Below are positions 9,901-61,400 of a DNA stretch of 64,000 nucleotides, in pieces (position 1 is the first letter of the stretch; each line of letters begins with the position of its first letter). The notes under the pieces are model-generated. The model saw nothing but the letters and a program-made list of their open reading frames with translations, had not been told where the DNA came from and did no database searches. The translations under genes were made by a program, and so were the position numbers. This stretch comes from Argopecten irradians (Eukaryota; Mollusca; Bivalvia; Pectinida; Pectinidae). The stretch spans positions 38,495,604-38,559,603 of the forward strand of contig NC_091138.1 of assembly GCF_041381155.1 (NCBI RefSeq), written 5' to 3'.

Positions 9901-12900
9901 CAAGTTGACCACGGCTTAGGGCTATTGACATTGAATAACGATTCTCGGTTCTGTACTAAACAATCCCTTGTTTCAATTTCTCGCGAATTATGACAATAGT
10001 CAAGTTACAAAATTACATGACCTTTGCATTTACAGTCAAACATTTTCATAAAACATAATGGGCGAATCAATTGCTAAGGATATATTAATTATATAGTTCA
10101 TCGGTTTAATCGTACCTGTTACTTATAAACAACTGTTCCACAGAATTCCGATCAAATAGAAAATTTTATATTCAGTTTCAAAATGCATAAATGGAATCAA
10201 TGGAAACAAGCGAATTTTAGAATATATCAAGCAATCAGAGACAATTATACATAAGCTATATCAAAGATTACACTCACTGTATAAGCTGAGGGAAATCGTA
10301 GGCAGTTTCAATTTTTTCCTTTCCCGCTCCAGTCGCAGCTGAGAGAATTAGACGCGGATTACCAGTTGATTGTGCGTCACTATCAAACAGCTCACGTGTT
10401 TTCTGTACATAGCAGTAAACAACTGAATATTAATCTATAACTGGAACCGAATCAAATACGTCAAACATCTGTTTTGGCAGCAGAAAGTTCATGCAATGTT
10501 TGAATGTAAATGTATTATCAAACGTAGTATGAAGTAGTACGAAAACGTGCGGTGTCATTTACCTTGACGAGTTCAACGAAGTTTTGTTTGTCCTTAGGAG
10601 GGCTCCCTCTATTTGCCGGATATTCCCAATCAAAATCGAGCCCATCGAAATTATGTGACCGAAGAAATTTTACTGCATCAGTGGCGAAGTCGGTGCGAGT
10701 TGCATCGGAAGCTGCTATCCTTGTGAAGGGTGCAGATCCAAGGTTCCAGCCTCCAACAGCTAGCATAGTCTTCACATTTGGGTTCTGTTTCTTCAATGCG
10801 TTGAATCGTTCGTACCTGCAGTTAAATATAATGAAGACTGTTTGATTCAAATTTGGATTAAGTGATTAAGCTAATGATTAATTTAATAATTAATATGTAA
10901 GGACTAAACTCGTTACCTTGCCATTTTTTGTCTAACTCCTTTTCTATTAATGGCAATAAGACATGATTTCAATGGAATAATGGAATCAAACGATTGAATA
11001 AGTTACAGTGGTATTCCGGTCGCTAATAATACTTTATTAGATTTATGTACTTGTCAAACCTAATTTGTAACAAAGAATGTCAATGAATACTTCATGGATC
11101 TGTGTTTTACTTACAAGCCTGTGGACCATGGTGTACTCTCGTCGTTCCATTCAAACGCTTTCAGATGATTATTGTTGAGTGTTGCAAACGCGTAGATGAT
11201 ATGTGTGCAAAGACTGGCGTTGATGTTCTCGGGGAAGAACCTCCCTTTGCCGTTTCTGTACTGAGACCAGTTAGAGTGGTAACATATACGGCGGTAGGAG
11301 TCGTTTGATCCAGATGCAGATCCTTAAATAAAAAAGTCTGAGTTTTGTAATAGTGGCCATGATAACGCTTGTAACTACTGATTTGGAGCAATATTTCAGG
11401 TATTTGTATAATCGTTAATTACAAAGGTTACTGGCAAGGTCTGTCACCCAGGTACTGCAAGGTTTTTGTTTAATCTAAACAAATACATCGTCAATACGTT
11501 TTGGTCATCGTCATTAACATTAAAAAGTAATTACTTGGAAAGCCTGTATTCACTTTGTTACAGACAGATTACTAGGATTACCAGTCATCTTGACAATGTT
11601 CTGGTTTCGGGACATTATGAATATTCTTTAATGTAGTATGTAGTAGAATAGTTGAACTAGATTTTAATCATATTTCCAGCAAGCTCTTCAATCCGACGGC
11701 TGCCATGGTATTAGTTAATCTGCTAATTCTTTTGGATAGAGTGAATTTCTTTCTGCATACGTCTTTACTCTTGTAAATCTGAATGTATTCTTTGCAAGTC
11801 TTTTTGATAATTTGTCTTTTTAGTGCTAAGAGGGGCTTGACTTTACTCGAATACTTTGTAAAATGGAGATTTTTATTTATTTCCGGGAGTGTTTGTAATT
11901 ATATGATGTATTAAAAAGATCTAAACTGGTTGTGGAGTTGAATATATTGTGATCAACTCAAAGTCTGTAAACCTTAACTTTCATTTATTATTAGCACTCA
12001 CTTGAAACAAAGTCATACAATAGCAAAATGTTTAACTCACCGGAATTTTGAGATGAACCTGAAGGTGTTGAACTGACAGGTACGACTGCAGTGGTTGGCG
12101 GTGGACTGAGGACATTTATAAAAATATCAGTTACTGTTCTTGTTGTAATATGACACGTTAAATTAAAACGCTGTTTAATACAAATTATATTCATCGGAAA
12201 TTATAGTCTAGTATTATGTATTGAAGTGGTCTGCGGATGGACTGCCGAAATCCACATATCAAAAGCGTATATACGAATTGAAAGGTATTGTGATCCGTTG
12301 GACAATTAATTACAAAACATGTTTCGTCAACAGTGAATTTTTTTAAGTTTAAATGGAGTCTGAGAATAAAAAACAGATTGCATTCGTAAACAAATATTAT
12401 ATCAATATTTACATAATAATGTCTACTTACTTGGTTATCACTGGTATAGGTCCAGCTCTTGTTAATTCGTCATTGATGGCGTTCAGAAGTGGATATTTGC
12501 CTTCTCCGCACGATCCACTGAAATCGTCAAGGGCAAGATCCCATACCATAACACCACCGTACTGCTCGTGTCTCACAAAATCTACCTGTTAGTAACGTAT
12601 GAAACCATCTTTATGTTGATTTCAGTAACAGTTCAAACCAAACAATTTTATTGGATCTTAATTTTTATATTTCATCCTTGACGAGTTTGAGGATTGCATT
12701 AATTTAACCACTTCAAGTTCAGTTCTCTTAAATCTAAAGCAAAGAAATGTTAGGATATTGTTAATCCAGTATAGAATACACATATACCTACACATGTCTG
12801 GGTGATTGTATTACCTTCTTACGGAGACTTTCCTGGTCATCGTAACCCACCCACTGGTTACCTTTGACGATGTAGGGTACCTCCTGACCTTCTATCATAT

Positions 12901-15900
12901 GTTTCGTAGACGTGGGGATCATTTTACAGATCTGAAGTAAACGAAATCCATGAGAAACCAAAGAGAACAAGACTGAGCTAAAGTATCATACGAAATATTA
13001 CAAAAAATAATGATATTAATCCTAATTTATTCTGGTTTATAATTAAAATTGTATGAAGCAAATCAAATTGTAGATCATTTGTATAAAGCTAGACCTTTAC
13101 CTCGTAGTAGGCCAGGAATCCACGCTCTGCCGTATACATTCCAGCGTTTCCTCCACCACTAACAGGAGCGTTCAAACCAGTTTCACTTGTACTTTTCAGA
13201 GTGAAGGAGCGACCATATAATGGCATTCCGACGTTAAGCATGCTCTTCGGTACTCCTCTTTTTATATATTCATGTGCAGCCCATTCCTTGTAAAACAAAT
13301 AAATTCATAGAATTCATGTCGGCCAGTTCAGGAAATACTGTAGGTTAATATCATTGAAAATAGGACAGTTATTGTAAATTGTAGTAAAATAATTTTGTAC
13401 TAAAGTAGCAGATGATAATGGTTTCTCCTATTGTTCACTGATTAGTCAACGGTTTTCGTCGTTATAGGTTTCTTTAGGGTATGACAGATTGCACGCGCTA
13501 ATTTTGTGAACCTGAAGTTTCATTAAAACAATTCCGTGACGTTATGACTTCATGCGGTGTAACTGTGGCGTGGAATGTCGATGACTTAATCAATATTAAC
13601 TATACCACATTCAATGTTGTGTCGTTTCCGGTATCCATAGGGCCGGCCTTAAGTGGACTGTTGTGACCAGTGTGGTCATCAAACGCACCATGGAGGTCAT
13701 AGGTCATCAAGTTGATCATATCCAGATACCTACGGAGTTCATTAAAAAAAACAATCTCAACTAAAAGTCGTTTTCATGCATAGAAGGTATCTATTTGACA
13801 AGAACGGAAAGTGATCCTTGTAGCTAAAAGATTTTGGTAAACAAAATAATAATATAGATCTATTTTGAAATGTCTTAATATGGACCCACGATACGGAATT
13901 GCTAGAATTGCTACGGAATTGGAGTCCAGATGTCCTAAAGTAGCGTTTCTAGACTATATATTTCAGCATTGGGCTCAATACACCGTTTTTAAGTTCTGTC
14001 AGACACGTGCTTTCTGCAACAAGAAGCCCAATGCGCCTGTGTAGCTCACCTGGACAATGATTATAATTTAAGAAAAAAAAACTACAATTCACAGAGGAAG
14101 ACGATTTTCAAAGATTTCTTATAAATAGAATGTCATACAACACGGTAAGGGAGGCGAACAAATTAAAGACAACCTTTACCATTGTCCTTTTCATTCAAAG
14201 ATAGTACATTCAATTATTTATATTTATCCTGACGGACAATTCCTTCTATTCGCCTATATACAGATACTACAGATACCAATACCAACTCACTGTATTAGCT
14301 GAGGGAAATCGTAGGCAGTTTCAATTTTTTCCTTTCCCGCTCCTGTCGCTGCTGATAGAATCAGACGCGGTTTACCAGTTGATTGTGCGTCACTATCAAA
14401 CAGTTCACGTGTTTTCTGTACATAGATATAAAACATTCTTGTTTAGATGAGAATCCTAGAGACCAAGATAATAAAACAACATTTATATCAGAATATACTA
14501 AACAAGCAAGCCAACAGCAGAACACTACTGCAATATCATTACCTTGACGAGTTCGACGAAGTTTTGTTTGTCTTTAGGGGGGCTCCCTCTATTGGCCGGA
14601 TATTCCCAGTCGAAATCGAGCCCATCGAAATCATGTGATCGAAGGAATTTCACTGCATCAGTGGCGAAGTCAGTACGAGTTGCATCAGAGGCTGCTATCC
14701 TTGTGAAGGGTGCAGATCCAAGGTTCCAGCCTCCAACAGCTAGCAGAGTCTTAACATTTGGGTTCTGCTTCTTTATTGCGTTGAAGCGTTCGTACCTTCA
14801 ATTCAAGAGACAGAACAAAAGGAATATACCAATTTTCGAAGTGCATCTTGTATGGCTTCTATGAAAACTACCACCAGCTAAGTATAAATTTCATTAGAAA
14901 TTATGTCATAATCTTATATCGCGATCAAAGAGTGACCTTCAGCAGGTAAGTACAATCATACTTTAGCGCTGCATTTATGGTGCGAATAACGCTAAAATAA
15001 CCGCCAAACTAATATGTTTATAGTGCATAAATATGGGTTTATTACTTTTACTATAGATGATTTCATTTGGATATATTTTGCCTGTCTTCTACTTACAAGC
15101 CTGTGGACCATGGTGTACTCTCATCGTTCCATTCAAATGCCTTTAAATGATTACCATTTAGAGTTGCAAACGCGTAAATGATATGTGTGCAAAGACTGGC
15201 GTTGATGTTCTCGGGGAAGAACTTCCCTTGGCCGTTTCTGTACTGAGACCAGTTAGAGTGGTAACATATACGGCGGTAGGAGTTGTTAGATCCAGATGCA
15301 GATCCTAATTAAAAAAAAAAAGTCTAACTAATAAGTTCATGTTTAGTTGCTAAGGTTACACTTGTGTCTTAGTTGCACTAATCGAGGAAACACGTAATTT
15401 TTATACAGAATTTCAAAATGAACCAATATTCCAATATGGTTTAGATTATATGATCAAAAATTCTTTCTGTATAAACAATGTATAATACATTTAGAAATGA
15501 ACACAAACTAATCCATTTCATATTAGATATAAAAACCGGAATTACCGGACGCCGACGTAGTTGTAGCCACAGTAGTAGTGGTAGGTGGGCTGAAAAACAA
15601 TATTTAAATCGAAATATTACAAACAACCATGACAAAAATCATTTTCGTTTAATAGTCTGTCTTGGCAAGTAATTCAGTCATGTTTAGTCGATATTGTAGA
15701 TCTTTGATTGACACGGGTATACCACAGACTCCCAAAACACGCACCACGCAATTCACACACGCAAGACATCGCATACACGGGGAACCATCCCTCAATGGCC
15801 CTGTCTGTCAATAGGACGTAAATATAATAAAGTATAATAAAACCAATCAATCTACGTTGTTTAAAGGGAAAACGAATGATGTTTTTTTTTTATTTCTTCT

Positions 15901-18900
15901 TTACTCACTAGCTATCACTGTATCGACTAACCATGAATTCTTAATTCACAAGTACTTTATTTAATTGTGCTGTGTTGTGAATTTTACTTGGCGTATTAAT
16001 ATTATTTCTGTTTATAAAATTATGTCGACTTACTTGGTTATCACTGGTATAGAACCAGCCCTTGTCAATTCGTCATTGATGGCGTTCAAAAGTGGATATT
16101 TGCCTTCTCCACACGATCCACTGAAATCGTCAAGGGCAAGATCCCAAACCATAACACCACCATACTGCTCGTGTCTCACAAAATCTACCTGTTATGAAAA
16201 AAGATTTTATCTGTTAACCATTAAATACAATATTCGTAAAATGAGAGATATGATTGCCATACATTCACACCAAACGCAAAACATCCATGGTACAAGAAAT
16301 ACACATAAAGTTTCAACTGCGGTTAGTGGGATGTGGAGTATTACAAAGTCAAATGTAATATCATGTTTGATTTAAATTACCTTCTTGCGGAGACTTTCCT
16401 GGTCATCGTATCCAACCCAATGGTTACCTTTGACGATGTAGGGTACCTCCTGACCTTCTATCATGTGTTTCGTAGACGTTGGGATCATTTTACAAATCTG
16501 GAATCAACATAAGGTAACGTGATGAGCACCAAACTGGTAAAAAGTATTATTGAACCTATGAGTAAAGTATTAATCGTGAAAATTGAAAATTGTAAACAAC
16601 AAAAAAAAAATTATAGATCATTTGGATAAACTAAGACCTCACCTCGTAGTAGGCCAGGAATCCACTCTCACCGGTATACCTCCCAGCAGTCCCTCCCCCA
16701 CTGACGGGAGCGTTCACACCAGTGTTACTTGTGCTTTTCAGAGTGAAGGAGCGACCATATAGAGGCATTCCTATATTTAGCATGCTCTTCGGTACTCCTC
16801 TTTTCACATATTCATGGGCAGCCCATTCCTTACAAAAAAAGTAAAATTCATATCAGCCACTGCAAAAATATTGTAAGTTACTACAATAATCATTGAGGAT
16901 CTGATTACAGTTGAACTTGCGAGAAATAATGTAGAAAAGCGGCACATGACAATCGTCTATAATGTGTAAGAATCATTATCTCGTACATCTAAATCTGAAG
17001 AAAATACTGAGACACAGTTTCTCCAATACTCATCAACTCAAAAGTGGTTATTAACTATTGAAAAATTCTATATACCACATTCAATGTTGTGTCGTTTCCG
17101 GTATCCATAGGGCCGGCCTTGAGTGGACTGTTGTGACCAGTGTGGTCATCAAACGCACCATGGAGGTCATAGGTCATCAAGTTGATCATATCCAGATACC
17201 TACGGAGTTCATTAAAAAAAACTCAACTAAAAGTCGTTTGCATGCATGGAAGGTATCTAATTGACAAGAACGGAAAGTGATAATTGTTGCTAAAAGATTT
17301 TGGTAAACAAAATAATAATATAGATCTATTTTGAGAGTGTGGTTGTTACGAAATGTCTTAATATGGACCCACGATACGGAATTGCTAGAATTGCTACGGA
17401 ATTGGAGTCCAGATGTCCTTAAGTAGCGTTTCTAGACTAAATATTTCAGCCTTGGGTTCAACACGCCGTTTTTTAAGTTCTTTCAGACACGTGCTTTCTG
17501 CAACAAGAAGCCCAATGCGCCTGTGTAGCTCACCTGGACAATAATTATAATTTAAAAAAAAAACTACAATTCACAGAGGAAGACGATTTTCAAGGATTTC
17601 TTATAAATAGAATGTCATACAACATGGTAAGGGAGGCGAAAAAATTAAAGACAACCTTTACCATTTTCCTTTTCATTCAAAGATAGTAAATTGAATTATT
17701 TATATTTATCCTGACGGACGATTCCTTCTATTCGCCTATATACTGATACCAATACCAACTCACTGTATTAGCTGAGGGAAATCGTAGGCAGTTTCAATTT
17801 TTTCTTTTCCCGCTCCTGTCGCTGCTGAGAGAATCAGACGCGGTTTACCAGTTGATTGTGCGTCACTATCAAACAGTTCACGTGTTTTCTGTACATAGAT
17901 ATAAAACATTCTTGTTTAGATGAGAATCCTAGAGACCAAGATAATAAAACAACATTTATATCAGAAAATACTTAACAAGCAAGCCAACAGCAGAAAACTA
18001 CTGCAATATCATTACCTTGACGAGTTCGACGAAGTTTTGTTTGTCTTTAGGGGGGCTCCCTCTATTGGCCGGATATTCCCAGTCGAAATCGAGCCCATCG
18101 AAATCATGTGATCGAAGGAATTTCACTGCATCAGTGGCGAAGTCAGTACGAGATGCATCGGAAGCTGCTATCCTTGTAAAGGGTGCAGATCCAAGGTTCC
18201 AGCCTCCAACAGCTAGCAGAGTCTTCACATTTGGGTTCTGCTTCTTCATTGCGTTGAAGCGTTCGTACCTTCAATTAAAAAAAGTATGGACCAATCCATC
18301 AGTTCGGTGGACCGTTTTGGGATTATGATATATTGCTAGTTAAAGAAGCCCAGTATTAACCTTTACCTGGGCACCATGGAACGTATTGCTGCAAAATTGT
18401 AATTATTATACCAAACACGCTTAAATATTATACAAACACAACTATTAGCGTGCTTCCATACGAATTTCATTTTGATATATCAAATTGACATGCAATCTCA
18501 CGATATCGGAATCAGTCACTTGAAAATTAAGTTAAAACATTTTTTTTTATTATGGATTATTTATTTCATTTGAATATCTTTTGGTCGTCTTCTACTTACA
18601 AGCCTGTGGACCATGGTGTGCTCTCGTCGTTCCATTCAAATGCCTTTAAATGATTACCATTAAGTGTGGCAAATGCATAGATGATATGTGTACAGAGTGT
18701 GGAGTTGATGTTCTCGGGGAAGAACTTCCCTTGGCTGTTTCTATATTGAGACCAGTTAGAGTGGTAACATATACGGCGATAGGCATTGGTAACCACTGAA
18801 ATACGAAATCAAATAGCAACATCAGTCTTCAAGCGCATAAGTTCCACAGCAATGAACTTTTTACTAACGTCAATTAGCAATTTCACAACTACAAAGAAAT

Positions 18901-27499: not shown

Positions 27500-28629
27500 G
27501 GGCGTAATTGTGATGATGGTCTTGTCGGTTGTCCTTCTGTCAAGTATGGCTTTCCTTGCAGCTTCCTCATTGGTGATCAGTCGGATTGATATATCGTCCT
27601 CTTCATCTTGCTCCTCTTCCTCATGGTATTTCCATTGTCACAGTCCTTATCCTTCCCGCTGTTGTCTTGTTCACTTGTGTCGTCGTGCTGTCTGTCCTGT
27701 CCGTTGTCTTCTAGTGGTACCATTTCCAAGTCATTGTCAATATCTTCTAAAATTATCTCTGGAGTCTCAATCTCGTCTTCTGTGTCGGAATCTGTTAGGT
27801 CCAGCCCTAGGTCCTTTGCTGATGTCTTTGGTAGCCAGCTGCGTCTTCTGACATTTGTAACTTTTAATTTCTTATTATACGGTCTTGTTGGTTTCGTTGG
27901 TTTTCTTATAAAATTTCCGTCACTCAGTTCATCTCTGTCCTTTGTCTCTGTTTCCTCTTCTCTCAATCTCTTCACTGTCTTCTCTTGTTCCTCTTTTCTG
28001 TTTTCCTTTCGTCGTTCGTCCTCTTCTTTCTGCCTCATCAGGTTCTTCTGTCTTTCTTCCTTTCTAGCTTCCTCTTCTCTCAATCTCTTCACTGTCTTCT
28101 CTTGTTCCTCTTTTCTGTCTTCCTTTTGTCGTTCGTCCTCTTCTTTCTGCCTCATCAGATTCTTCTGTATTTCTTCCTTTCTAGCTTCCTCTTCTCTCAG
28201 CCTCTTCATATTCTTCTGCTGTCATTCATCCCTTCTCTCTTCCTTCCTTCCTTCATCATCTTCCCTCTTTCTTTTCAGGTTCTTCTGTTCGTGGCGCCTG
28301 CGATTATAGGTTTCTCTAATACTCTCTGTCTCTTCTGCCTTCGTCAGTGCCTCCCTCTCTATCGATCTTACGATTGTCTCTATCTTCCTGGAATATTCTT
28401 TATACTCTTTCTCCTCTTCAAAAGTAAGGGTCATAGTACTCCTTTTAATCAGTTCCAACCGTGAAGACTCACACTTCCTATGTTTCCCTTCTCTGGAGTA
28501 CACCTGCCGGCATTCTAGACATCGGTAACCGAATCCAGAGTGCGCCGCCAGAATATGTCTCTCACAATACAATTGCTGACTGAATTCCTGGTCATCTCCG
28601 CAAATGGCGCAGTAGTAGCGGTAACCAGC
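27500..28629 (-). CDS. Extra coding region of the LTR element: Cys-rich zinc-finger-like head and Glu/Arg-rich coiled coil
   Basis: After an ATTTCAG acceptor-like site at 28630, the minus strand encodes GYRYYCAICGDD, LYCERHILAAHSGFGYRC, LECRQVYS and GKHRKC, a spacing of Cys and His that suggests zinc binding. A long charged segment follows with about three repeats of a 38-residue unit (KRLREEEARKEERQKNLMRQ and so on), a likely coiled coil, then an acidic stretch. It lies on the same strand as pol and between integrase and the 3' LTR, where some Gypsy elements carry env. I do not recognise the family. It may be a captured host gene or an element-specific accessory gene. A SINE copy at 26962-27493 separates it from the BTB part. 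Confidence 0.6.
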
Positions 28630-39630: not shown

Positions 39631-42600
39631 CTTTAATGAAAAATAAAATCTTTATCCCAATATTTCATATCCACATATGAAAGAGTCAACCATACGTGGG
39701 ATACAATGCAATAGTGAAATTTCACCAAGGTATATCTAACTATCAAGAATGTTTTGAAATTATCAGTAAACATCAATGGATATGAAAAATAATTTTAGAC
39801 AGAACATGTTTGTAAATTTTGTGAATTTTTTTTTAGTAGTAGTGACCTTTGTAGTTGACCTTTTGACCCCAAATACAAACCCAAGCTATATTATCTCCTA
39901 TGTTACCATTGTATGAAGTTTGAACAAATTCCGTTGATATGTTCCCAAGTTATCATTCGGACACTGAAATTTGTGAAATAAAGATTGTTTCACAAATTTC
40001 AGTGTCCAAATGATACCTTGAGAACACATCAACGGAATTTAATGGTAACATACCTTGGGTTTGAATTTGTTGTTAAAAAGGTCAATTTTTTTGTAAGTGA
40101 CCTTTGTAGTTGACCTTTTGACCCCAAATTCAATCCCAAGCTGTAATTTCTCATATGCTACCATTGTGTGAAGTTTGATCAAAATGCGTTGATTTTTTCC
40201 CAAAGTTATCGTCTGGAAACGTTTGTTTGTTTGATTAATTAACGTCATATTTACAGCTATGGCCATGTAAGGACGGCCTACCATGTATGCGGTGTGTTGC
40301 AAGTATGTTGTGCGAGGGGCGTGTTTTTGGAGACTGTGAATGATTTTAAACAATTCATTTTTAGTAATAGTGACCTTTGTTGTTGACTTTTTGACCCCAG
40401 ATTCAATCCCAAGCTGTATTCTCCCATATGCTATCATTGTGTGAAGTTTGATCAAAATCCATCCATTAATACTCAAGTCATCTGGAAACCAAATCCGAAA
40501 CCAAACACTAAAGTCCCTTTCCAGTTTCCAGCAGTGGACTAAAAAGAATTGCTTGATGTCTGCTGGTATAGTTACCTGACATACACTTACCTGGAGCGCT
40601 GGTCGCAGCTGGAGCATGTGTTGGTTGTGGCGTATTTATACCTGGTTGTGGGGTTTGCAGAGGCATGTAAGTGACTGGTCCGATGGTGACAGAAGCGGTG
40701 GCCTGGACTGGATTCTGTGTTACTGCCGGGGGCTGAGAAGAAGGTGACTGACTTACGCTGCAGTGTACGTTTCTTGGCCAATCACAGAATGAAGAGGACG
40801 GATTAAATAAAAGCCCGGATGTACATGCCACCTCAAACGCTGATCCACCGGCACAGATAAAGTATTTGGAGCAATCGGTCGGGTTGGGGTAAAAACTAGG
40901 ATTTCGTCCTGTACATTTGAAGTTGCTTGAAGGTGAAACTGTGTGATGAGCTGTAAGAAGGTAAACAGCAAAATTATCAATACTTGTTTTTAGTTGTTTC
41001 ATCATTAATGAAAATGCATCTTCACATAATGTTTTTGTGTGATGAAACCATTATATCAAATTCATGAAATGTGTATACGACTTGAGTGACATATCGGATG
41101 TTGGCCCTGCAGGTAGGGCGTTAGAATTGTACCTGCTGCCCCTATTGCATGATCGTAAAAGGCGACTAAATTTAGGACCTTATCTTTTCTCTTCTTTCTT
41201 AATGACTTTATCTTTCCTAATGCCTCCCTTGGCACCGCCTCACTTTTGGCCTTGAGTTGAGCGTTCGCCCCTGTGAGGAAGGCTCTGGGTTCTGTCCCCT
41301 GGCCGAGACACACCAAAGTCTATAAAAGTGGTAGTTTCTACTCCTGCTTAGCGCTCAGCATAACGGGAGTGGGACGACTGGTTCACCCGTTGTCAGTATA
41401 ATGTGACCGGGTGAGGTGTGTTGCTTGGTGTCTTCGGCGGCATGCTTCAGTGATATAGCACTTTAAAAAGGGCAATAGTTCCACTATACAAGAAGACACA
41501 ACATGAATATACCACAGTCTCCCAAGACACGCACCTCGCACAACATACACGCAACAGACCACATACATGGGAGGCCGTCCTTACAAGTTACATGACCATA
41601 GCTGTTAATAGGACGTTAATTAATCAAACAAACAAACAAACAAAAATTGTTTTTGACTTACAAGATGTTGTTTTTGACTTACCGGATGTTGTTTGTGGGA
41701 CATGAGTGACATGGACAGGAGCATTTGTCGTCACTCTTGTGGTACGAACAGGTGCTTGAGTTGTAACTACAGGCTGAGTGGTAACGGGTGCTGATGTCTG
41801 TGGACTAATGCTAGTATTCTTAAAATTGATGAGCTTAATGGAAGAAATTTAAGGTGCTCTGAATGGTAATTTCTCGGAGAGGGCAATAATTATATAATAA
41901 TTAGAAAGATAACTCGTACGAGCTTATTTTTGCTTAAACGTTTTTTGTATTTCATTAAAAACATTTGGAAGAGAGCTTAAGAGTCAACTTTTCTATTGTG
42001 AAAATCAATCGCGTAAACGTTAGATAAGAACTTTTTGTAAAATACTGGTATATGAATCAGAGTGGACAGCTACGATACTGAACCATTGCATTGTGTACAC
42101 ACTGGTGACCATAATATATATTACGGTGTAAAACGATATGATTTTCAAATACAGCAGATTAAACCCTTCCTTAGAAGAGCAAAGGAAAACTTTCAACGTC
42201 ATCTTAAATCACCAAAATCAGCCCAAAACCGAAACTTACCGATTTCGCCGGCAGCCATCTTTAATGACCGTAATATATATTACATTATATTATTATATAA
42301 TTATATTATAGTGTGTGCACAGTGCCTTGGCGGACCTCGCGTCAAAATTGCTTTCAAAATTTGATTGGATGTAGCTAGGTTCAGTCGACCAATTAAAAGC
42401 GGTTTTTACGACGATTTTATGTTATAATGTAACGTTTTAATAACGTATTGCTATTGTATTAATAACGTTATTCTGATTTACTTGCGTTTTTGATAACCTG
42501 ATCATGACTTATTCCGCATTTACACCACCATAACTTACCCGGTAATAATTACATCATTCTGACTAAAATTCAGAATGAATAACTGACTAAAATTCAGAAT

Positions 42601-45600
42601 GAATAACTAATGGCCCTGCAGGTAGGGCGTTAGAATTGTACCTGCTGCCCCTATTGCATGATCGTAAAAGGCGACTAAATTTAGGATCATATATTTTCTC
42701 TTCTTCCTAACTGACTTTATCTTTCCTAATGCCTCCCTTGGCATCGCCTCACTTTTGGCCTTGAGTTGAGCGTTCGCCCCTGTGAGGAAGGCTCTGGGTT
42801 CTGTCCCCTGGCCGAGACACACCAAAGTCTATAAAAGTGATAGTTTCTGCTCCTGCTTAGCGCTCAGCATACAGGGAGTTGGACGACTGGTTGGCCCGTT
42901 GTCAGTATAATGTGACCGGGTGGGTGTGTTGCTTGGTGTCTTCGGCGGCATGCTTCAGTGTTATAGCACTATAAAAAGGGCAATAGTTCCACTATACAAG
43001 AAGACACAACACGAATATACCGCAGTCTCCCAAAACACGCACCTCGCACAACATACACGCAATACTACGCATACATGGGAGGCCGTCCTTACATGACCAT
43101 AGCTGTTAATAGGACGTTAATAAATCAAACAAACAAACAAACTGAATAACTAAGGTTTTGAATACTTCATCCTGACTTACTTATTGTGGCTTACTCCTGA
43201 CCCAGACCTTGTCAACTCGTCATTGATAGCGTTCAGGAGGGGATACTTTCCTTGTCCACACGATCCAATGAAATCGTCTATAGCAAGATCCCAAACCATA
43301 ATACCACCAAACTGTTCCTGCTTAACGAAATCTACCTAAAACAAGAAATTCAGTAATGACAGTCATTGATCATAAGATGTTGTTCAGATTGAATCTTCGT
43401 TATCAAGTGTTGTGTTATTGCAAAATTAATACGTTGATTTGGTTAGTTTTATTCTGCTTCCCGTCCGTCCTTTCAATATCAGAAACCATTTAAGGATGTT
43501 CTTTTCTGTATTCGATATGGTTTTGGGAGACTATGGTATATATTCGCTATGCATTCATGTGATAGCGGAAATGTAATGTAGTTATATTACTTCAGTATCG
43601 TTTTCATAACATTATATAAATCATGATATAGTAAAGACTTTTTTTTCACATCTTCAAATGACTCGTATCCATGTGAACATTACCTACCTTTTTACGGAGA
43701 CTGTCCTGGTCATCGTAGCCCACCCATTGGTCACCCTGGACGATGTAGGGAACCTCTTGACCTTGTATTATGTGTTTCTGAGATGTTGGGATCATTTGAC
43801 AAATCTGAAGGTTAAAAGATACATATATTGTGAAACTCGTCCTGAAATTTGAATATTACCGCGGCAAGGCACGTAAAATGTAAGACTCGTACGTTTCGTA
43901 TGAAATAGATACTAATACATATCATTATCGAATTGACAAAATAATAATAGCCATATTTCTTACCTCATAATAGGCTAGGAAGCCTGCCTCATTCGTATAG
44001 CGTCCAGCATTACCAGCTCCCCGGGCTGGAGCATTAACACCGTTATTGTTAGGGTCCTTCAGTGTAAACGAGCGGCCGTATAGAGCCATCCCAACGTTGA
44101 GCATGCTCTTCGGTACTCCTCTCTTTGTATATTCGAGGGCGGCCCATTCCTTTGGAAAAAAAACATGCACATGGAAAAAATGTAATTACTGTACTTTTTT
44201 AATATCAATAGGAAAGAAATAAAAAGTGGCATTCATTAGAAGGGCCCGCTTCCGCTAAGGTGAACATTAGCTGCAGTAAATGACTAAGTGACACCAAACA
44301 TTCCTAAATGCTTTCATCATCAGTGTACGCAGTATCTTCAAAAGGTTCTAGTGAACAAATGTCATTGGCATCGACCGATTTTCTTCACAGGTTATTGCGG
44401 CCTTCTTGAATTTCTCGGGAAATACCCAACTCCTTATTGAACATCTTCATTCTATCAGATTGTACTATGTGCAGTTTTAATTCAAAACAAACGGTGTTAT
44501 ATTGTACAGACACGGTTATCACTGTAAGAACGGCCTCCTATGTATGCGATATGTTGCTTATGTGAGGTATTGATGCGTGTTTGTGTGTCTCGGACAGGGA
44601 TAAGAACCCGGAACCTTCCTCACAGGTGTGAGCACCAAACAATAAAAGTAAGGCGGTGTTAAGTGAGACGTTAGTAAAAGGTAAGTCAGTTAGGATGAAT
44701 AGAAAAGATAACATCCTAAATTTAGTCGCCTTTTACGAACACACAATGAGGACAGCAGGTGCAGTCCTGCAGTATTCAGTTAGAATTGCAGTTTCCAGCT
44801 GTTTAAGAATAGGGCGTATGAAAACCCCGAAATTATCTTATATATGATTTATATGCCCTTAAAATGTCAATTATGTCACGTACATGTTCTACTGTTGATG
44901 GGATCTTACCAGATTCAGGGTTGCGTCATTTCCAATATCCATGGGGCCTGCCTTAAGTGGACTGTTGTGACCAGTGTGGTCTTCGAACGCTCCGTGAAGG
45001 TCATACGACATCAGGTTGATCATATCTAGATATCTAAGTGGAAAAAACCGAATCAATTCTCAGATTAATGAGAGGTTGTTTATATATTCTTAAACATGCT
45101 CCATCACTGACAAATGACATTTTTTCGCTATCAAAAATAGGAACAGACGGGAAAAAATGAAGATAATTAATTGCATCCCGAAAAAAAAATCTTTCGAATA
45201 TAAGTACCTGGGCTCTGAAATGGGACATAAAGTTTAACCCCACTAAAACTGAATCATTAATATTTTCAAGGAAACGAAACGTCATTCATCCCGATATATA
45301 TTTTGACAATAACACGGTTCATACAGCTAGCACACATAGACATTTAGGAGTTCTACTTTCTGACGACTGTAAATGGACTCACCACATAGATTATGTATAC
45401 CAGAAAGCATTTAAAAGGATAAATATTTTAAAAGCATTAAAAAAAGAGTGTCACGTAAAACTCTTTTAAACATTTATAAAAGTTATATTTTACCTATTTT
45501 AGAATATGCTGATGTTTTATGGGATAACTGTACTGAACAATGTAAACTTCTGTTAGAGTCTGTCCACTTAGAAGCCGCTAGGATTATAACGGGATTGCGC

Positions 45601-48600
45601 AGAGGTACCTCCCATGATATACTTTATAAAGAACTAGCTTGGGAATCTCTTTCGGATCGGCGTCAAAAACACTAACTTTTCTTATGTTTAAGATACTCCG
45701 TGGATTTGCTCCACAGCATTTGATTGAAATTGTACAACCATTTTTATATCAGCCTGAAAATGAGAGATATCCACTAAGGATGACAAGATATTTTAATATT
45801 CCTATGTGCAGAACTGCAAGTTACTATACTAGTTTTTTTCCAAGTACCTTTAGAGAATTTAATTCTTTCGCTTTAAACTTTGACTTATCGAATGTTAATA
45901 CTGTTGCACAATTTAAAACACTCCTTTTTAACATTATTAGTAAAATGGAACCTGATATAACAAATACCTTTATAAACAAAGGTTCTCGAATTATAAATAT
46001 TACTCTGTGCCAGCTCAGAAATTCCTCTAGCAATCTAAATTCTGACCTATTTCGCGATCATTTGAGAGATTCTCCAATTTGTTCTTGTGGCCTTGGTAAT
46101 GAAACAGCCGAACACTATCTTTTCATATGTCCTTTATTTAATGAACAAAGATCATCACTCAGAACCAAAATACATAACTCTAATATCCCCCACTCGCATT
46201 TTAACGCAAAAACTCTACTGCATGGCTGTGACAATTGTGATGAAGAAAAAATACATATTTATTGCAATGCATATCAGAATATATATCTGAAACTAAAAGA
46301 TTTTTTTAGATTTTTCTACTATGATAGATTGGGGAGATACACTAATAATAATATTCATTCATAATGTAATGTTAAATGTTAAAATATTTTGTTGATAATT
46401 GTACTATACCGGATTTGTTTGGAGATGGCTAATATAGGCTTTGCCTGTTGCCAAATCCATTTGCATATTATTTGCAATAAAATTTGTTGAAATTAAAAAA
46501 ATTTAAAAAAAATCCCGAAAAAAATCCGTGGCAATATGTCCTGTATGGAATTGATTATTGATTGCGCATGCACCAAAAGCAAAACCAATTATTTCATATT
46601 AATTGTTGCGTTAAGTAGACATACATGTATTTATGCACGATTAAACACCAATTATTGTTCGAATAATGAGCATCGTTTATGCTCTGTTGGCGATGTAGCA
46701 TCTTTAACGTACTTGATTGTTGATATATTATCTTGTAACGTACTTTATTGGTGATATATTATCTTAAATCGTACTTGATTGTTTATATATTATATTGTAA
46801 GGTACTTGATTGTTGATGTATTATCATGTTACATACTTGATTTCTTATACATTATCTCATAACGTACTTGATTATTTGAGGAATGTCATAACCCGTGTCG
46901 ATCTTGGTCTTGCCTGCACCTACAGCAGCCGACAATATCAATCGATTCTTACCAGACGCGGCGGCGTCGGCATCAAAGGTCTGACGTATAATCTGTAAAA
47001 TAACATTGTATTATTAGGTATGACGTAAAATAGCATTTTATTATTAGGCCTGACGTATAATCTGTAAAAAAGCGTTTTATTTTAGGCCTGACATATAATC
47101 TGTAAAATAGCGCTTTATTATTAGGTATGACGTAAAATAGCATTTTATTATTAGGCCTTTCGTATAATCTGTAAAATAGCGATTTATTTTAGACCTGACA
47201 TGTAATCTGTAAAATAGCGCTTTATTATTAGGTCTGACGTATAATCGGTAAAATAGCGTTTTATTATTAGGCCTGACGTATAATCGGTAAAATAGCGTTT
47301 TATTATTAGGTATGACGCATAATCTTTCAAACAGCGTTTAATTATTAGGCATGTTTTATAATCTGTAAAATAGCGTTTTATTATTAGGTTTTTTGTATAG
47401 TTTGTTAAATAGCGATTATATATTAGGCCTGAAGTATAATCTGTAAAATAGCGTTTAATTATTAGGCCTGAAGTATAATCTGTAAAATAGCGTTTTATTA
47501 TTTGGCCTGTCGTATAATCTATAAAAAAGCGTTTTATTATTAGTTATGAGTATAATCTGTTAAAAAAGCGTTTTATTATTAGTTATGACGTATAATCTGT
47601 AAAAAAGCGTTTTATTATTAGGTCTGACGTATAATCTATAAAAAAGCGTTTTATTATTAGGTCTGACGTATAATCTATAAAATATTAATCTATAAAATAA
47701 AAAGCATTTTATTATTAGGTCCGAGCGTATGAGAAATCTTAAAAGGCGTAAAAAAGTGTTTTATTATTTAGGTCTGACGTATAATCTGTATAAAATAGCG
47801 TTTTATTATTAGGTCTGACGTATAATCTGTAAAAAAGCGTTTTATTATTAGGTCTGACGTATAATCTGTAAAAAAGCGTTTTATTATTAGGTCTGACGTA
47901 TAATCTGTAAAAAAGCGTTTTATTATTAGGTCTGACGTATAAATAAAAAAGCGTTTTATTATTAGGTTATCTGACGTATAATCTGTAAAAAAGGCGTTTT
48001 ATTATTAGGTCTGACGTATAATCTTAAAAAAAGCGTTTTATTATTAGGTCTGACGTATAATCTGTAAAAAAGCGTTTTATTATTAGGTCTGACGTATAAT
48101 CTGTAAAAAAGCGTTTTATTATTAGGTCTGACGTATAATCTGTAAAAAAGCGTTTTATTATTAGGTCTGACGTATAATCTATAAAATAGCGTTTTATTAT
48201 TAGGTCTGACGTATAATCTGTAAAAAAGCGTTTTATTATTAGGTCTGACGTATAATCTGTAAAAAAGCGTTTTATTATTAGGTCTGACGTTGACGTATAA
48301 TCTGTAAAAAAGCGTTTTATTATTAGGTCTGACGTATAATCTATAAAAATAGCGTTTTATTATTAGGTCTGACGTATAATCTATAAAATAGCGTTTTATT
48401 ATTAGGTCTGACGTATAATCTGTAAAAAAGCGTTTTATTATTAGGTCTGACGTATAATCTGTAAAAAAGCGTTTTATTATTAGGTCTGACGTATAATCTG
48501 TAAAAAAGCGTTTTATTATTAGGTCTGACGTATAATCTATAAAATAGCGTTTTATTATTAGGTCTGACGTATAATCTGTAAAAAAGCGTTTTATTATTAG

Positions 48601-51000
48601 GTCTGACGTATAATCTGTAAAAAAGCGTTTTATTATTAGGTCTGACGTATAATCTATAAAATAGCGTTTTATTATTAGGTCTGACGTATAATCTGTAAAA
48701 AAGCGTTTTATTATTAGGTCTGACGTATAATCTGTAAAAAAGCGTTTTATTATTAGGTCTGACGTATAATCTGTAAAAAAGCGTTTTATTATTAGGTCTG
48801 ACGTATAATCTGTAAAAAAGCGTTTTATTATTAGGTCTGACGTATAATTTATAAAATAGCGTTTTATTATTAGGTCTGACGTATAATCTGTAAAAATAGC
48901 GCTTTGTGATTACTGAAACATTTTTTTGCGAGATTCGTGTTCATTTATCTTATCAGTATTTTCACATGATAGGTTTTGTTTCGACTTTATAATAGATATA
49001 TAGGGACAAAGGTAATATTGATGAAAAAAAAAGAAAGTAAAGACGGATTTAACGTTTGTTATATTTCTTATTTAGAGGAGATATCAACTAGACAAACACT
49101 ACTTTGCAACTCGCTGAACTTATGCTGTTAGAAGAAGACAATTTTGACAAGGGATATATAAGGCATTATATATTTAGGGAATATACATTCAACAATACTA
49201 GCATATCAAAATCTGACAACCAGATGTTTGCTAGTAAACTGATAATGTATATATTGAACTCTGTATGCTCTGTTTGATAAAAAGTAGCTCTAGTCAACTT
49301 GTGGAAATAAAAATATCCTGATAACTCTTGCAACCCTATGATAATATATGCGACTACTGACCTTGACAAGTTCAACGAAATTCTGTTTGTCCTGTGGAGG
49401 ACCCCCTCTATTGGCTGGGTACTCCCAATCCAGGTCAAGGCCGTCGAAGTTGTGTGTTCTCAGGAATGTGACTGCATCGGTGGCGAAATCACGTCGATTT
49501 GCATCCGTAGCTGCCATTCTGGTAAAGGGCGCCGTACCCATACTCCACCCACCTACCGCAAGTATGGTCTTTAAGGTAGGATTTGTTTTCTTTAGGTCGT
49601 TAAAACGTTCGTACCTGATAATAGAATTACAGCAAAGGTGTGGATATGTCAGCTAGCACTTCCATATGTAATCAACTACTGTTTCACAAGTTAATTCACG
49701 TTACAAAACCAGTGTAACTCGTATCACTAAGCTCATTATATTGTCTACTACTGTTTCACAAGTTAATTCACGTTACAAAACCAGTGTAACTCGTATCACT
49801 AAGCTCATTATATTGTCTACTACTGTTTCACAAGTTAATTCACGTTACAAAACCAGTGTAACTCGTATCACTAAGCTCATTATATTGTCTATCTCATTAA
49901 AAGCAAAAGAGACATATTAAAATGAACCATATCATTGAAAAATATATTAAAACACAAACAAAAAGAGGGGGGCAACATGAAAGTCACAAATGATTTTAAT
50001 TCTTACTTTCTTTTACGTGAATGTGAAAATAGGGGAAAGAAGTCTCCTAAATATTACTTGAGTGACTCCACTATGAATAAACTTCCTGACTAACTCACAT
50101 AAACATTCATGTCTTTACAATGGCATTGTTCCTAAAGTGATCATAGGAATTGAAATGACGAAAAGCATGATATTACTAAACTTTAAACATTTCTCTTTAA
50201 AGACACTTTGACATACAGATATATATGTTGACCCCGGAAAGCATATACTAGGTATTAGGTGTCTTCACGTACATGCCCTTTGACCACGGCGTGCTCTCGT
50301 CGTTCCATTCATAGGCTTTAAGGTGATTTCCGTTGAGGGTAGCGAATGCGTATACAATATGGGAACAGAGACTGGGATCGATGTTCTCCGGGAAGAACTT
50401 CGCTGGTTTGTTTCTATATTGTGACCAGTTGGAATGGTAACATACTCTGCGATAGGCGTTGACAACCACTGCAATAATGTATGTGAAATCATGACTAAAT
50501 TACACATATTGATTAACAAAACTCACTATGGACGTTTATATGGCGTAAGATGGCGTTTCTTGGGAGTGGTTTATGAATACATTCTTTAGTAATCTATACA
50601 GAAATATCATAGTATGTCCACTTCGGAAGCATACTTTCGTTAATTGAATTTTGGTGATAAATGATCTGGTCTATTTTAATTCCAATTCATGTAGAGACAA
50701 ATAAAAAGAAAGAAGATGGCCTAACGAATACCTACAGGAGTCCTCTCTCTGGTTAAATATATTGTATGTTATATAAGAATCAATGGAAGTCTATTTTCCT
50801 TCGTTTTAGAACACACATATTTCTGATGGGTTAATCAAAGATGATTGAGCGTAGTCCTTTTGCAAACTACATTTCCAACATGGACAAAGTTTAGATTTAT
50901 GTTGAGAATAAGATCCCATCACCGGACGTATTACCTAATGAATTATTCTATGAAGTACGTTACCTGTTAATACCGCCAAAAGAAGAACGATTCGGAGCAT
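39428..51000 (-). CDS. Secreted chitinase: signal peptide, GH18, Thr-rich linker, two CBM14 domains (complete)
   Basis: Eleven coding exons: 50964-51000, 50273-50468, 49362-49614, 46868-46992, 44910-45033, 43964-44149, 43688-43804, 43181-43335, 41683-41804, 40591-40950 and 39428-39630. Their lengths sum to 1,878 nt, 625 codons plus stop, with consistent phases. Residues 1-17 are a signal peptide ([12 protein letters not shown]...). The GH18 domain spans about 18-398 with catalytic DGLDLDWE (D135, D138, D140, E142), [19 protein letters not shown] and LYGRSF. A Thr/Pro linker covers about 398-438, and two six-cysteine CBM14 domains follow. Exon sizes match the GH18 units of the neighbouring gene exactly. 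The introns carry three SINE copies, a LINE and two splice-site-derived minisatellites. The predicted role is extracellular hydrolysis of chitin, anchored by the CBM14 modules. Confidence 0.92.
39835..40200. repeat. Interspersed repeat with direct copies and a foldback core
   Basis: A module containing GTGACCTTTGTAGTTGACC and TTTTGACCCCAAAT occurs near 39840, 40098 and 40370. At 39901-40050 two arms of about 50 bp (TTCCGTTGATATGTTCCCAA... and its complement) face each other around a loop of about 9 bases. It lies in the intron between the two CBM14 exons. Confidence 0.75.
40218..40335 (-). repeat. SINE-like family A tail fragment
   Basis: GTTTGTTTGATTAATTAACG, then GCCATGTAAGGACGGCC and a truncated end inside the TTTTTGGAGACTG segment. 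It interrupts the direct-repeat module. Confidence 0.7.
40591..40950 (-). CDS. First CBM14 (peritrophin-A type) domain and second linker
   Basis: A 360-nt exon with six cysteines in the CBM14 spacing ([40 protein letters not shown]), followed by a Pro/Thr/Gln linker ending [12 protein letters not shown]14 binds chitin and normally tethers the enzyme to its substrate. Confidence 0.88.
41104..41646 (+). mobile_element. SINE-like family A, full copy
   Basis: Starts GGCCCTGCAGGTAGGGCG, has the tRNA-like core (GAGTTGAGCGTTCGCCCC, GGCTCTGGGTTCTGTCCC) and ends in CAAACAAACAAA. It lies in the intron between the linker exon and the first CBM14 exon. Confidence 0.85.
41683..41804 (-). CDS. Thr/Pro/Val linker exon
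   Basis: 122 nt encode [20 protein letters not shown] followed by [22 protein letters not shown], a likely O-glycosylated spacer between GH18 and CBM14. The donor-side sequence is duplicated just downstream: TTGTTTTTGACTTAC occurs at about 41648 and 41669. Confidence 0.8.
42085..42325. repeat. AT-rich foldback repeat
   Basis: GTGTACACACTGG and ATAATATATATTACGG on the left face CCGTAATATATATTA and GTGTGTGCACAG on the right. It resembles a MITE core and lies in the intron before the Thr-rich linker exon. Confidence 0.5.
42556..42610. repeat. Direct duplication of about 26 bp next to a SINE
   Basis: TGACTAAAATTCAGAATGAA followed by TAACT occurs twice in tandem, and the SINE at 42611 inserted at its edge. 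Confidence 0.6.
42611..43142 (+). mobile_element. SINE-like family A, full copy with perfect 11-bp target-site duplication
   Basis: TGAATAACTAA flanks it at 42600-42610 and 43143-43153. It is a full-length copy with head, core and CAAA tail, lying less than 40 bp from the donor of the GH18 exon at 43181. Confidence 0.9.
43181..50468 (-). CDS. GH18 catalytic domain of the CBM14-bearing chitinase
   Basis: Seven exons encode [71 protein letters not shown] and [18 protein letters not shown]. The catalytic acids are present. Sequence differences from the four-domain gene are spread through all exons, so it is a more distant paralogue than the four units are to each other. Confidence 0.9.
44510..44785 (-). 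repeat. Decayed SINE-like family A copy
   Basis: ATCACTGTAAGAACGGCCTC, GTGTCTCGGACAGG, CCTTCCTCACAGG and AAATTTAGTCGCCTTTTACG are recognisable, with large internal losses. Confidence 0.6.
45189..46511 (+). mobile_element. 5'-truncated LINE with 13-bp target-site duplication
   Basis: The plus strand encodes the end of a non-LTR reverse transcriptase ([51 protein letters not shown]) and a C-terminal zinc knuckle ([20 protein letters not shown]). At least two frame breaks (near 45440 and 45665) show it is dead. It ends in an A-rich tail near 46495. ATCCCGAAAAAAA is found at 45175 and at 46512, which fixes the insertion. It differs from the RNase H-bearing LINE at 3.9-5.0 kb and may be CR1- or Jockey-like (uncertain). 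It lies in the intron between exons 4 and 5 of the GH18 domain. Confidence 0.82.
46691..46874 (-). repeat. 31-bp minisatellite made of copies of the adjacent exon's 5' splice site
   Basis: Read on the minus strand, the exon ends AATCAA before GTACGTTA. Five further copies of AATCAA (or AATAAA) plus GTACGTTA-like sequence follow at a spacing of about 31 bp, with ATAATATATC-type spacers. Four of the five keep a GTAYG or GTACC donor-like core. Confidence 0.85.
46978..48905 (-). repeat. 39-bp minisatellite made of about 49 copies of the adjacent exon's 3' splice site
   Basis: Each unit, read on the minus strand, holds CTAAT (branch-point-like), AATAAAACGC, a T-run, ACAG or ATAG, and then ATTATACGTCAGACC. 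The last 15 bases are exactly the first 15 bases of the exon at 46868-46992. The array begins at the real acceptor and fills about 1.9 of the 2.4 kb intron. Units near the exon are more diverged and the central and distal ones almost identical, so the expansion is recent on the far side. Confidence 0.92.
49675..49890. repeat. Three tandem copies of a 72-bp unit
   Basis: Units start at 49675, 49747 and 49819 with ACTACTGTTTCACAAG and are identical or nearly so. They lie in the intron between GH18 exons 2 and 3 of the second chitinase gene. Confidence 0.88.
50964..51000 (-). CDS. Signal-peptide exon of the CBM14-bearing chitinase
   Basis: Encodes [12 protein letters not shown], completed by VVNA in the next exon. 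As in the larger gene, the ATG directly follows a TTTCAG acceptor, so a non-coding exon must lie upstream. Confidence 0.82.
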
Positions 51001-58495: not shown

Positions 58496-61400
58496 TTACC
58501 ATCCCCGTCTGCGACCACCAGTTCTTCCACTTTGCTGACTATGAATTGCTTCTTGTTGGTCCTGCATTTGCCAGCCTAGCGCCCTCTGTCGGTAGATTTC
58601 CTTCTTAGCGGCGGCCTGCTGGGCCTGGTCCTGTTTGGCGTTAGTGATGAGCTCATTGTATCCATGGCGGGCGTTTAAACCGTCCAGGGCAGCGTTTATC
58701 AGAGGGTAGGGCCTGCCACATGAGCCTTTGTAGTCGTCCAAATCTAATGTCCAGATCATTACACCACCAAGGAAGTTGTTGAAGACAATACGAGCCTGCA
58801 GCACAAAATGGTGATAAAATGTCAGTTCTTTCCGAGGACAATAGAATTATCAGCATTTCTCGTCAAAAGTTTACAGAAATTCTTCACCTGATATCTTAAA
58901 GGGACATGAACCTAAAATAATTTGTTCTGTATGCTTAGATATGGTTTTCAGATGTTTATTGAATATTTTATTACAATTATTGGTTATCTAAAACGACATG
59001 AAAACGTGGGGAATAACTACCTCAAAAATGATAAAAATAGACCGTCATATTCTATTTTTGGAACACAAAACAAAAGCTGGCCGAAAGCGAGGTTATAATG
59101 ATAGTTTTCTACATTTTAAGATTATTTTCTAATTTACGATGGTTGACAAATGAAGATTAAGCCATATTTGTTACAATTTTGGTTTGGTTTGGTTCTTTAA
59201 TTAACGTCCTATTAACAGCTATGGTCATGTAAGGACGGCCTCCCATGTATGCGGTGTGTTGCGTGTATGTTGTGCGAGGTGCGTGTTATGGGAGACTGCG
59301 GTATATTCATTGTGTGTCTTCTTGTATAGTGGAACTATTGCCCTTTTTATAGTGCTATATCACTGAAGCATGCCGCCGAAGACACCAAGCAACACACCCC
59401 ACCCGGTCACATTATACTGACAACGGGCGAACCAGTCGTCCCACTCCCCGTTTGCTGAGCGCTAAGCAGGAGCAGAAACTACCACTTTTATAGACTTTGG
59501 TGTGTCTCGGCCAGGGGACAGAACCCAGAGCCTTCCTCACAGGGGCGAACGCTCAACTCAAGGCCAAAAGTGAGGCGGTGCCAAGAGAGGCATTAGGAAA
59601 GATGAAGTCGGTTAGGAAGAAGAGAAAAGATAAGATCCTAAATTTAGTCGCCTTTTACGATCATGCAATAGGGGCAGCAGGTACAATTCTAACGCCCTAC
59701 CTGCAGGGCCATATTTGTTACAAAACAATTTGTATTTAGCTTAAGAATGATAAGTCAAAAGTCAAACGAGACTTTTCATTCGACAGGGCACCGCGAAGGG
59801 AGGTTCCTGACTTATTGCACATATGTACATCACGCAAGTATAAAGTGGGGAGTTGCTCCCGTCTTTTGCATTTCAGCGATCCATTTAAATTTACCTACTT
59901 TCCCAATCGCACACGTTACTGACTCTTGACGTACACTGTTTTCTATCGGAATTCGTTTGTGTTCGCTTCACCCACATTTTTGACCCACCATTTGTTTACA
60001 TTAATTTAATTGGAGCAATGCATTGTGGGAGGTCACTTAAGATCAACACAGCTAAACTATCGTTACTAAATTCGACCGGGCCGGTTCAAAATACAGAAAG
60101 ATGGAATTTCCATTATAATTATTTTATTTGACACATTTGCACAATAACTGATATATATTACTTAGTAAGGTATCTGACACGTCTTAAATATGTATTTTAC
60201 TCAAATTTACATGGTTTATTTAGGTTCATGTCCCTATAAAACATTATGAAGTGTGCTTTGAATCAATAATTTTCATAAACTTGCAAGGACATCTACGTAC
60301 TTAGATAATTATTTGACTGTTGTCATGCAATTGTTATTACGTTAGTTTCATGTAATTGTTTTTAGTTTCAACAAGCAACTTTCTACACATTGTTTATTTT
60401 TAACAATAAATGGTATAATATGAAATAATAGCTTTTTTAATCGTGTGTTTTTTGTTTTGTTAGCTATATTGTGTTGTATACATTTTTACATAATTTATAG
60501 TTGTATGTTCCCATACCATAACAACAAAGATTTATTGAAATTCGGGTATCAATGACACATAAGAACACTTGATCAGTGTTGTACTTACCTTTTGTTTAAT
60601 ACTTTCTGGATTATCGTATCCGATCCATTCGTTGTTGACGATAACATAAGGGACACGTTTGTCGGCGATCACCATTTCTTTGGCTCCGTTCTTGATCAAG
60701 TGGCAAAGCTGTTGAGTGGATAAAAATGCTTTATCAAATTTGGTTTATGGTAATATCCACATACTACAACGGCACTTTTTTTTTCGCGAGGTACCAATGT
60801 TCGTATAATTTCGCAATATAGCTCTAACACGAATTCAAATAATTGTTAAAATGCTAATAGGAATTTATGATTGAGAATTTATGTATCCACGAATATACTG
60901 AAAATAACGAAAATGTGAAATATTGTGCACCCGAAAATAAAGTGGTTTACAGTAAGAGAGAGATAGAGAAAGAGAGAGAGGGGGGGAGAAAGAGAGACAC
61001 AGAATCCATTTTGTATTGGTTTAATTACGTTTGATAGGATAGGTCGCCTTACCTTTGAGATGGGGTAGCCGTCTCCCTCGTCGGAGCCCGGCCCAGAGCA
61101 GGGAGCCCCAGCCTGTGTATAGTTTCTGTTGGTCAGTGTGAAGGAGCGGCCATACATTGGCAGACCCAGCACGATCTTGTGGCGAGGGACTCCCTTGTTT
61201 ACCCAGTAACGGCTCAGGTTGTTCTGGAATAAAAGAAGGATTTGTCATCCAGCAGATGTCGAATTTATTTTATACATTTGGTAAGACAGATTATCGCACA
61301 GATTATCGTAAAAACATTCGATAACATATAGCGAAACAGCAAAACCAGACATCAACGATGGAGTAACATGTCGAACCTATTTCAACTAACCTATTAGAGG

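Follow-up and report, generated by a model that had tools for sequence, protein, structure and literature searches.

A 39-bp minisatellite extends across an intron-exon junction of a GH18 chitinase gene in the scallop Argopecten irradians

The window analyzed here, a stretch of 64,000 nucleotides from Argopecten irradians (assembly GCF_041381155.1, contig NC_091138.1, positions 38,495,604 to 38,559,603), carries a tandem cluster of GH18 genes on the minus strand at 1505-18793, 43195-50466, and 58676-61205. The cluster includes four close paralogues (P1 to P4), the gene studied here, and matches to a more distant GH18 gene. The studied gene, also on the minus strand, encodes a GH18 chitinase whose product additionally has a CBM14 chitin-binding domain. 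Its closest named relative is a protein from Pecten maximus, with 85% identity across 99% of the query.

We focused on exon C (46868-46992, minus strand), which is 125 nt long (41 codons plus AA), lies within the GH18 domain, begins in phase 0, and ends in phase 2. It is preceded by exon B (49362-49614, minus strand; donor AAG|GTCAGT), which contains what we take to be a GH18 motif, and it forms an in-frame junction with exon D (44910-45033, minus strand). The joined exons A to E give an open GH18 frame, and the intron before exon C has the same position and phase in all four window paralogues, so the exon given in the first-pass annotation stands. The reading frame, the homologues, and the four window paralogues agree with each other and thus fix the position of exon C. 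Across the studied gene and the four paralogues, all checked junctions had the expected dinucleotides (GT at 30 of 30 donors and AG at 30 of 30 acceptors). A genome search (846 Mb in 1,508 contigs) returned 111 GH18 exon matches, and exon C mapped to one place. Based on conceptual splicing, skipping of exon C would shift the frame and lead to a stop.

Most of the intron ahead of exon C is occupied by a 39-bp minisatellite (46977-48912, minus strand), whose extent we defined by wrap-around alignment from 48912 down to 46977. The array consists of the unit that contains the genuine acceptor, 49 other units, and a 2-base tail, which agrees with the approximately 49 copies originally counted. It reaches 16 bases into exon C and accounts for 81% of the intron (1,920 of 2,369 bases), as expected from the earlier statement that the repeat fills most of the intron. 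The consensus unit contains CTAAT, a T-run, ACAG or ATAG, and then the first 14 to 16 bases of exon C. The exact sequence ATTATACGTCAGACC was found 30 times in the window, always on the minus strand, and 0 times in 100 dinucleotide shuffles. One of these 30 copies constitutes the first 15 bases of exon C, so the proposed identity between the repeat and the exon start was upheld; the 16th base of the exon (T) likewise agrees with the repeat unit. TRF reported 48.6 copies of 39 bp, along with 2.2 copies of a 30-bp form, and ended the array at 46995, three bases before exon C; because of this end point, the exon C acceptor was not flagged by TRF alone.

The first-pass annotation had further described every unit as a complete 3' splice site. 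This is true of the consensus unit but not of all individual units, because only 41 of the 49 other units keep the AG; CTAAT is kept in 44, and 36 keep both. Divergence among the units depended on their position, as is typical of minisatellite turnover. The units far from the exon had 1.6 differences per unit (n = 29), compared to 5.75 in the units near the exon (n = 20, including the genuine unit; Mann-Whitney P = 6e-6, although units within one array are not independent). Changes were also present in the outermost distal units, at 48912 and 48873, and a few interior units were diverged. Units without AG were more frequent near the exon (6 of 19) than far from it (2 of 30), which might be read as a selective loss of AG next to exon C. 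We rejected this reading, as overall letter divergence there is also approximately 3.5-fold higher, and we attribute the AG loss in these units to age. Across the array, the number of letters off consensus was 11 of 98 for the AG, 45 of 686 for the exonic part, and 6 of 245 for CTAAT. The AG is not specially kept, and we therefore see no sign of selection for working decoys.

It is important to note that tandem arrays are error-prone in assemblies and that one published amphioxus minisatellite of a similar type appears, in the report describing it, to have been misassembled in the draft genome (PMC3087553). An array that was collapsed, expanded, or chimeric could in principle arise in the same way here. 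However, the window is N-free and lies inside a 51-Mb contig, the acceptor array itself contains 0 Ns, diverged units are distributed along it, and comparable arrays are found at other loci. An assembly artefact is thus very improbable, and our analysis confirmed the acceptor array as a real, junction-crossing minisatellite.

We then compared exon C and its upstream intron with those of the four paralogues. The corresponding exons are located at 5451-5575 (P1), 10278-10402 (P2), 14291-14415 (P3), and 17764-17888 (P4), all on the minus strand, and their upstream introns measure 159, 160, 127, and 127 bp, respectively. The array was absent from all four of these introns. At the start of exon C, the studied gene encodes IIRQTFDAD, the paralogues encode KTRELFDSD, and Pecten has TIRQTFNAD (for Pecten, the comparison is at the protein level only). 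The start of exon C is therefore old coding sequence, shared with the paralogues and Pecten, and it was the repeat that took up exon sequence. Within 3 mismatches, a pattern search of the genome with the 39-bp unit gave at least 32 matches, every one inside the acceptor array. These three observations (exon homology, array-free paralogue introns, and a single genomic locus for the unit) support the original proposal that the minisatellite expanded over the boundary between intron and exon.

The same data bear on other origins for the repeat. The match between the initial 16 bases of exon C and the repeat unit could also mean that the exon start derives from the repeat, with the acceptor having shifted into a satellite that already existed in the intron. 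This explanation is largely refuted, since the codons concerned are homologous in the four paralogues and in the Pecten protein, the intron has the same position and phase in the paralogues, and the unit was found nowhere else in the genome search; we consider it extremely unlikely, and an exonized-satellite origin was rejected on the same grounds. Bivalve genomes contain transposable elements with internal tandem arrays, which favors the alternative that such an element, or a dispersed satellite, landed at the locus. Nevertheless, the matches were not dispersed in the genome search and the unit shares its sequence with exon C, so we rejected a transposon origin and give this alternative, too, hardly any credence. 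Intron gain through tandem duplication was likewise rejected, as the intron is common to all four window paralogues in position and phase.

Two further junctions of the studied gene, neither of them mentioned in the first-pass annotation, are crossed by tandem repeats. At the other end of exon C, TRF identified a 31-bp minisatellite of 5.6 copies (46700-46873, minus strand) that lies across the donor and covers 6 exonic bases at the 3' end of the exon. The genuine donor (CAA|GTACGT) follows 46868, and decoys follow 46837, 46806, 46775, 46744, and 46713. All five decoys keep the GT, and three of the five score at least as high as the genuine donor on a local position weight matrix (PWM). Use of these decoys would lead to a stop in all four of those tested; the fifth has identical first 31 extension bases. 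The genome search gave 2 matches to the 31-bp unit, both at exon C. The exon H donor is crossed by a 21-bp duplication (41647-41694, minus strand; 2.3 copies by TRF) that covers 12 exonic bases. Here the genuine donor follows 41683 (CCG|GTAAGT) and a decoy follows 41662 (CTT|GTAAGT), the use of which would insert 7 residues and keep the frame. Counting TRF arrays and the acceptor array as defined by alignment, repeats cross 3 of the 14 checked junctions in the studied gene, while none of 48 junctions in the four paralogues was crossed by a TRF repeat.

To place these junctions in a wider context, we surveyed GH18 genes outside the window, covering 99 exon-like stretches in 27 regions (149,135 bases with 37 arrays); exon edges in this survey are tblastn edges rather than mapped exon ends. 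The survey identified two further junction-crossing arrays. At locus L044 (2687-3294; C5, from 1367957), a 46-bp array spans the donor site in a homologue of exon D. Its unit comprises the last 30 bases of the exon and 16 intron bases, and it is present as 18 pattern-matched units and one with an inserted base. The unit holds CAG|GTACGA, in which AG|GT could act as either an acceptor or a donor. At locus L060 (2511-2881; C15), a 39-bp array of 9.4 copies crosses an exon B donor. In the second half of the L060 array, three units read CAAAG|TTTG, compared to CAAG|GTAT or similar in the others. Arrays at L038 (two survey rows) and L041 (one row) end short of the exon and were dropped.

Random placement of the 37 arrays would be expected to produce 3.76 crossings of an exon edge, compared to the 2 observed (P of at least 2 = 0.92). 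Junction crossing is thus not above chance in the surveyed GH18 loci, which gives no support to the idea that arrays are targeted to junctions. No array was found within an exon, compared to a random expectation of 2.58 (P of 0 = 0.056). This outcome fits arrays that are hidden by splicing rather than aimed at junctions. Measured against the survey rate, which is based on two events only, 3 crossed junctions of 14 in one gene had a binomial P of 0.0003, or 0.007 after the first was discounted. The occurrence of three crossings in a single gene is a poor fit to a purely random process. In a sample of P450 loci that was too small to be informative (27 stretches from 12 loci, 5 of them single-exon), no array crossed a stretch edge.

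All 41 decoys of the acceptor array that keep AG (as AG|ATTA) come ahead of the genuine acceptor in transcription, and the closest of them is 69 nt from exon C because the intervening unit has no AG. The first-pass annotation had predicted that each decoy would add Ile-Ile-Arg-Gln-Thr and then a stop. Five codons followed by a stop were computed for 36 of the 41 decoys, while the remaining five give 4, 6, 6, 7, and 33 codons. The prediction was therefore correct for most decoys rather than for each, and its consequence, that choice of a decoy would truncate the chitinase, is borne out by these early stops.

We compared decoy and genuine sites with a local acceptor PWM built from 29 sites of five related genes, with the tested site left out. 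The genuine exon C acceptor scored 5.3 and the commonest decoy scored 2.6, and only 1 of the 41 AG|ATTA decoys scored at least as high as the genuine site. On the same scale, 37 of the 41 equaled or exceeded the lowest-scoring genuine acceptor found in the five genes. Pyrimidine content gave a different picture, with 31 of the 41 decoys at or above the genuine acceptor, and the two measures disagree on whether genuine or decoy acceptors are stronger. Further, among the matches listed, CAG|ACC sites within the portion of the unit that derives from the exon scored from 5.8 to 8.6, above the genuine 5.3, as did 2 of 25 other AGs in the intron (6.7 and 6.2, again among the matches listed). A CAG is also found 12 bases inside exon C; splicing there would remove IIRQ in frame, and these residues or their equivalents are present in homologues.

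Taken as a whole, the array is probably a passive repeat that happens to cross a junction and is hidden by splicing, since the copy on the exon side keeps the junction. The array may have started when a short segment spanning the junction (∼25 bases from the 3' end of the intron and ∼16 from the start of exon C) was duplicated in tandem. The duplication would have arisen within the studied gene, as the four window paralogues are without it, and could have expanded to ∼50 units via slippage or unequal exchange (the mechanism of duplication is inferred). The remaining copies would stay intronic and be removed with the intron, and the array would be tolerated because the exon-side copy retains an intact junction. 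Junction-crossing arrays would then be tolerated to about the same degree as arrays lying wholly within an intron. The same process may have given rise to the small donor array of exon C and the exon H donor duplication. We would expect most transcripts to use the acceptor on the exon side, presumably through acceptor-donor pairing across the 125-nt exon, together with a minority of mis-spliced transcripts with early stops; both the choice of site and the fate of mis-spliced RNA are predicted here. Weighing against the passive reading are the 41 AG-bearing decoys that precede the genuine acceptor, most of which match or surpass it in pyrimidine content, and the three crossings in one gene.

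Alternatively, in line with the first-pass suggestion on copy number, array length may influence expression, with longer arrays raising the use of decoys or the skipping of exon C, early stops causing transcripts to be removed, and less enzyme being made. The closest precedent is a variable-number tandem repeat (VNTR) in intron 18 of human ABCA7, described as having a 25-bp unit with a splice donor in about 12 to 427 units, in which longer arrays are reported to be associated with reduced expression and with more frequent skipping of the following exon, exon 19 (PMC5954066). These effects count against a passive reading. Moreover, stops follow the decoy acceptors, the four tested decoy donors, and exon C skipping, which favors such a mechanism. 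On the other hand, retention of one unit at ABCA7 is described as rare (2 ± 1%) and independent of length (PMC5954066), and the AG in the scallop units is kept no more than other letters. We consider this explanation possible but unlikely. A more specific form of it is also doubtful, and slightly more so: exon C, flanked by two decoy arrays derived from itself, could act as a length-set switch in which the copy numbers determine extension and skipping and hence the chitinase dose. If this were the case, the amount of one chitinase would be set by a fast-mutating minisatellite, and several such switches would exist across the gene family (at both ends of exon C, at exon H, and in two further GH18 genes).

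The scallop and ABCA7 repeats are alike in having a short unit with a splice site and many copies running inward from the exon edge. ABCA7 has the donor only, with measured effects, whereas the scallop has a large array at an acceptor that is known from sequence alone (PMC5954066). The scallop array is of the same kind as the "mirage" minisatellites of amphioxus, which have been reported from Adh3, the globins BflGb6 and BflGb9, and troponin C, with imperfect ones in PGBD5 (PMC3087553, PMC3902484). As described in those reports, many but not all of their copies carry splice signals (PMC3087553), their length is unstable between haplotypes, with somatic instability at Adh3, and RT-PCR data suggest that regular splicing is undisturbed (PMC3087553, PMC3902484). 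Both the amphioxus mirages and the scallop array have tandem units across an exon-intron boundary that duplicate splice signals, and both have a homogenized interior and a diverged edge (PMC3087553). In the scallop gene, we found a boundary-crossing unit at three junctions, splice signals in the copies, and this same pattern of interior and edge. The 39-bp scallop unit falls within the 10 to 72 bp given for Adh3 units, and its ∼50 units compare with 3 and 6 in two BflGb6 haplotypes (PMC3087553). Unlike the mirages as described there, the scallop repeats are in a mollusc gene and occur on either side of a single exon and at one more junction of that gene, and the case for them is so far made from genomic sequence (PMC3087553).

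Other known systems resemble the array in part. Human genes in segmental duplications contain minisatellites that average 30-bp units and 4 copies, some of them at exon edges (PMC2812944). As in the scallop, these occur in recently duplicated families and may activate cryptic sites, but they were tied to new introns or alternative transcripts in that account, whereas the scallop intron is old and common to the paralogues (PMC2812944). The tandem dual-specific splice sites of polyubiquitin UBC similarly place many equal sites in tandem; the UBC units are coding monomers, while those of the scallop are intronic and contain acceptors at the start of exon C or donors at its end (PMC10809524). Among the matches listed, the open-licence literature yielded no earlier report of a junction-crossing minisatellite in a mollusc. 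The scallop case stands out by the size of its acceptor array, by the presence of arrays on both sides of a single exon, and by its recurrence in a gene family, and it brings a mollusc gene family into the known range of junction-crossing minisatellites. How the spliceosome chooses among near-identical acceptors is a live question for which this locus offers a natural test, with 41 AG-bearing acceptor decoys and five donor decoys around a 125-nt exon and with mis-splicing that would be easily read out.

Several other features were observed in the window. The intron after exon C contains plus-strand open frames at 45167-46364 that resemble, we presume, the remnant of a non-LTR reverse transcriptase; there was no Pfam match for 45630-46364. 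Downstream of P1, an open frame of APQTPAPQT repeats (68-1027; 30-bp unit, ∼25 copies) forms a mucin-like linker, and a 117-bp tandem duplication of 2.2 copies (27952-28208) lies within an open frame in which E, K, and R are abundant. In the studied gene itself, the intron ahead of exon B holds three identical copies of a 72-bp unit (49675-49891), ∼60 bases from the acceptor.
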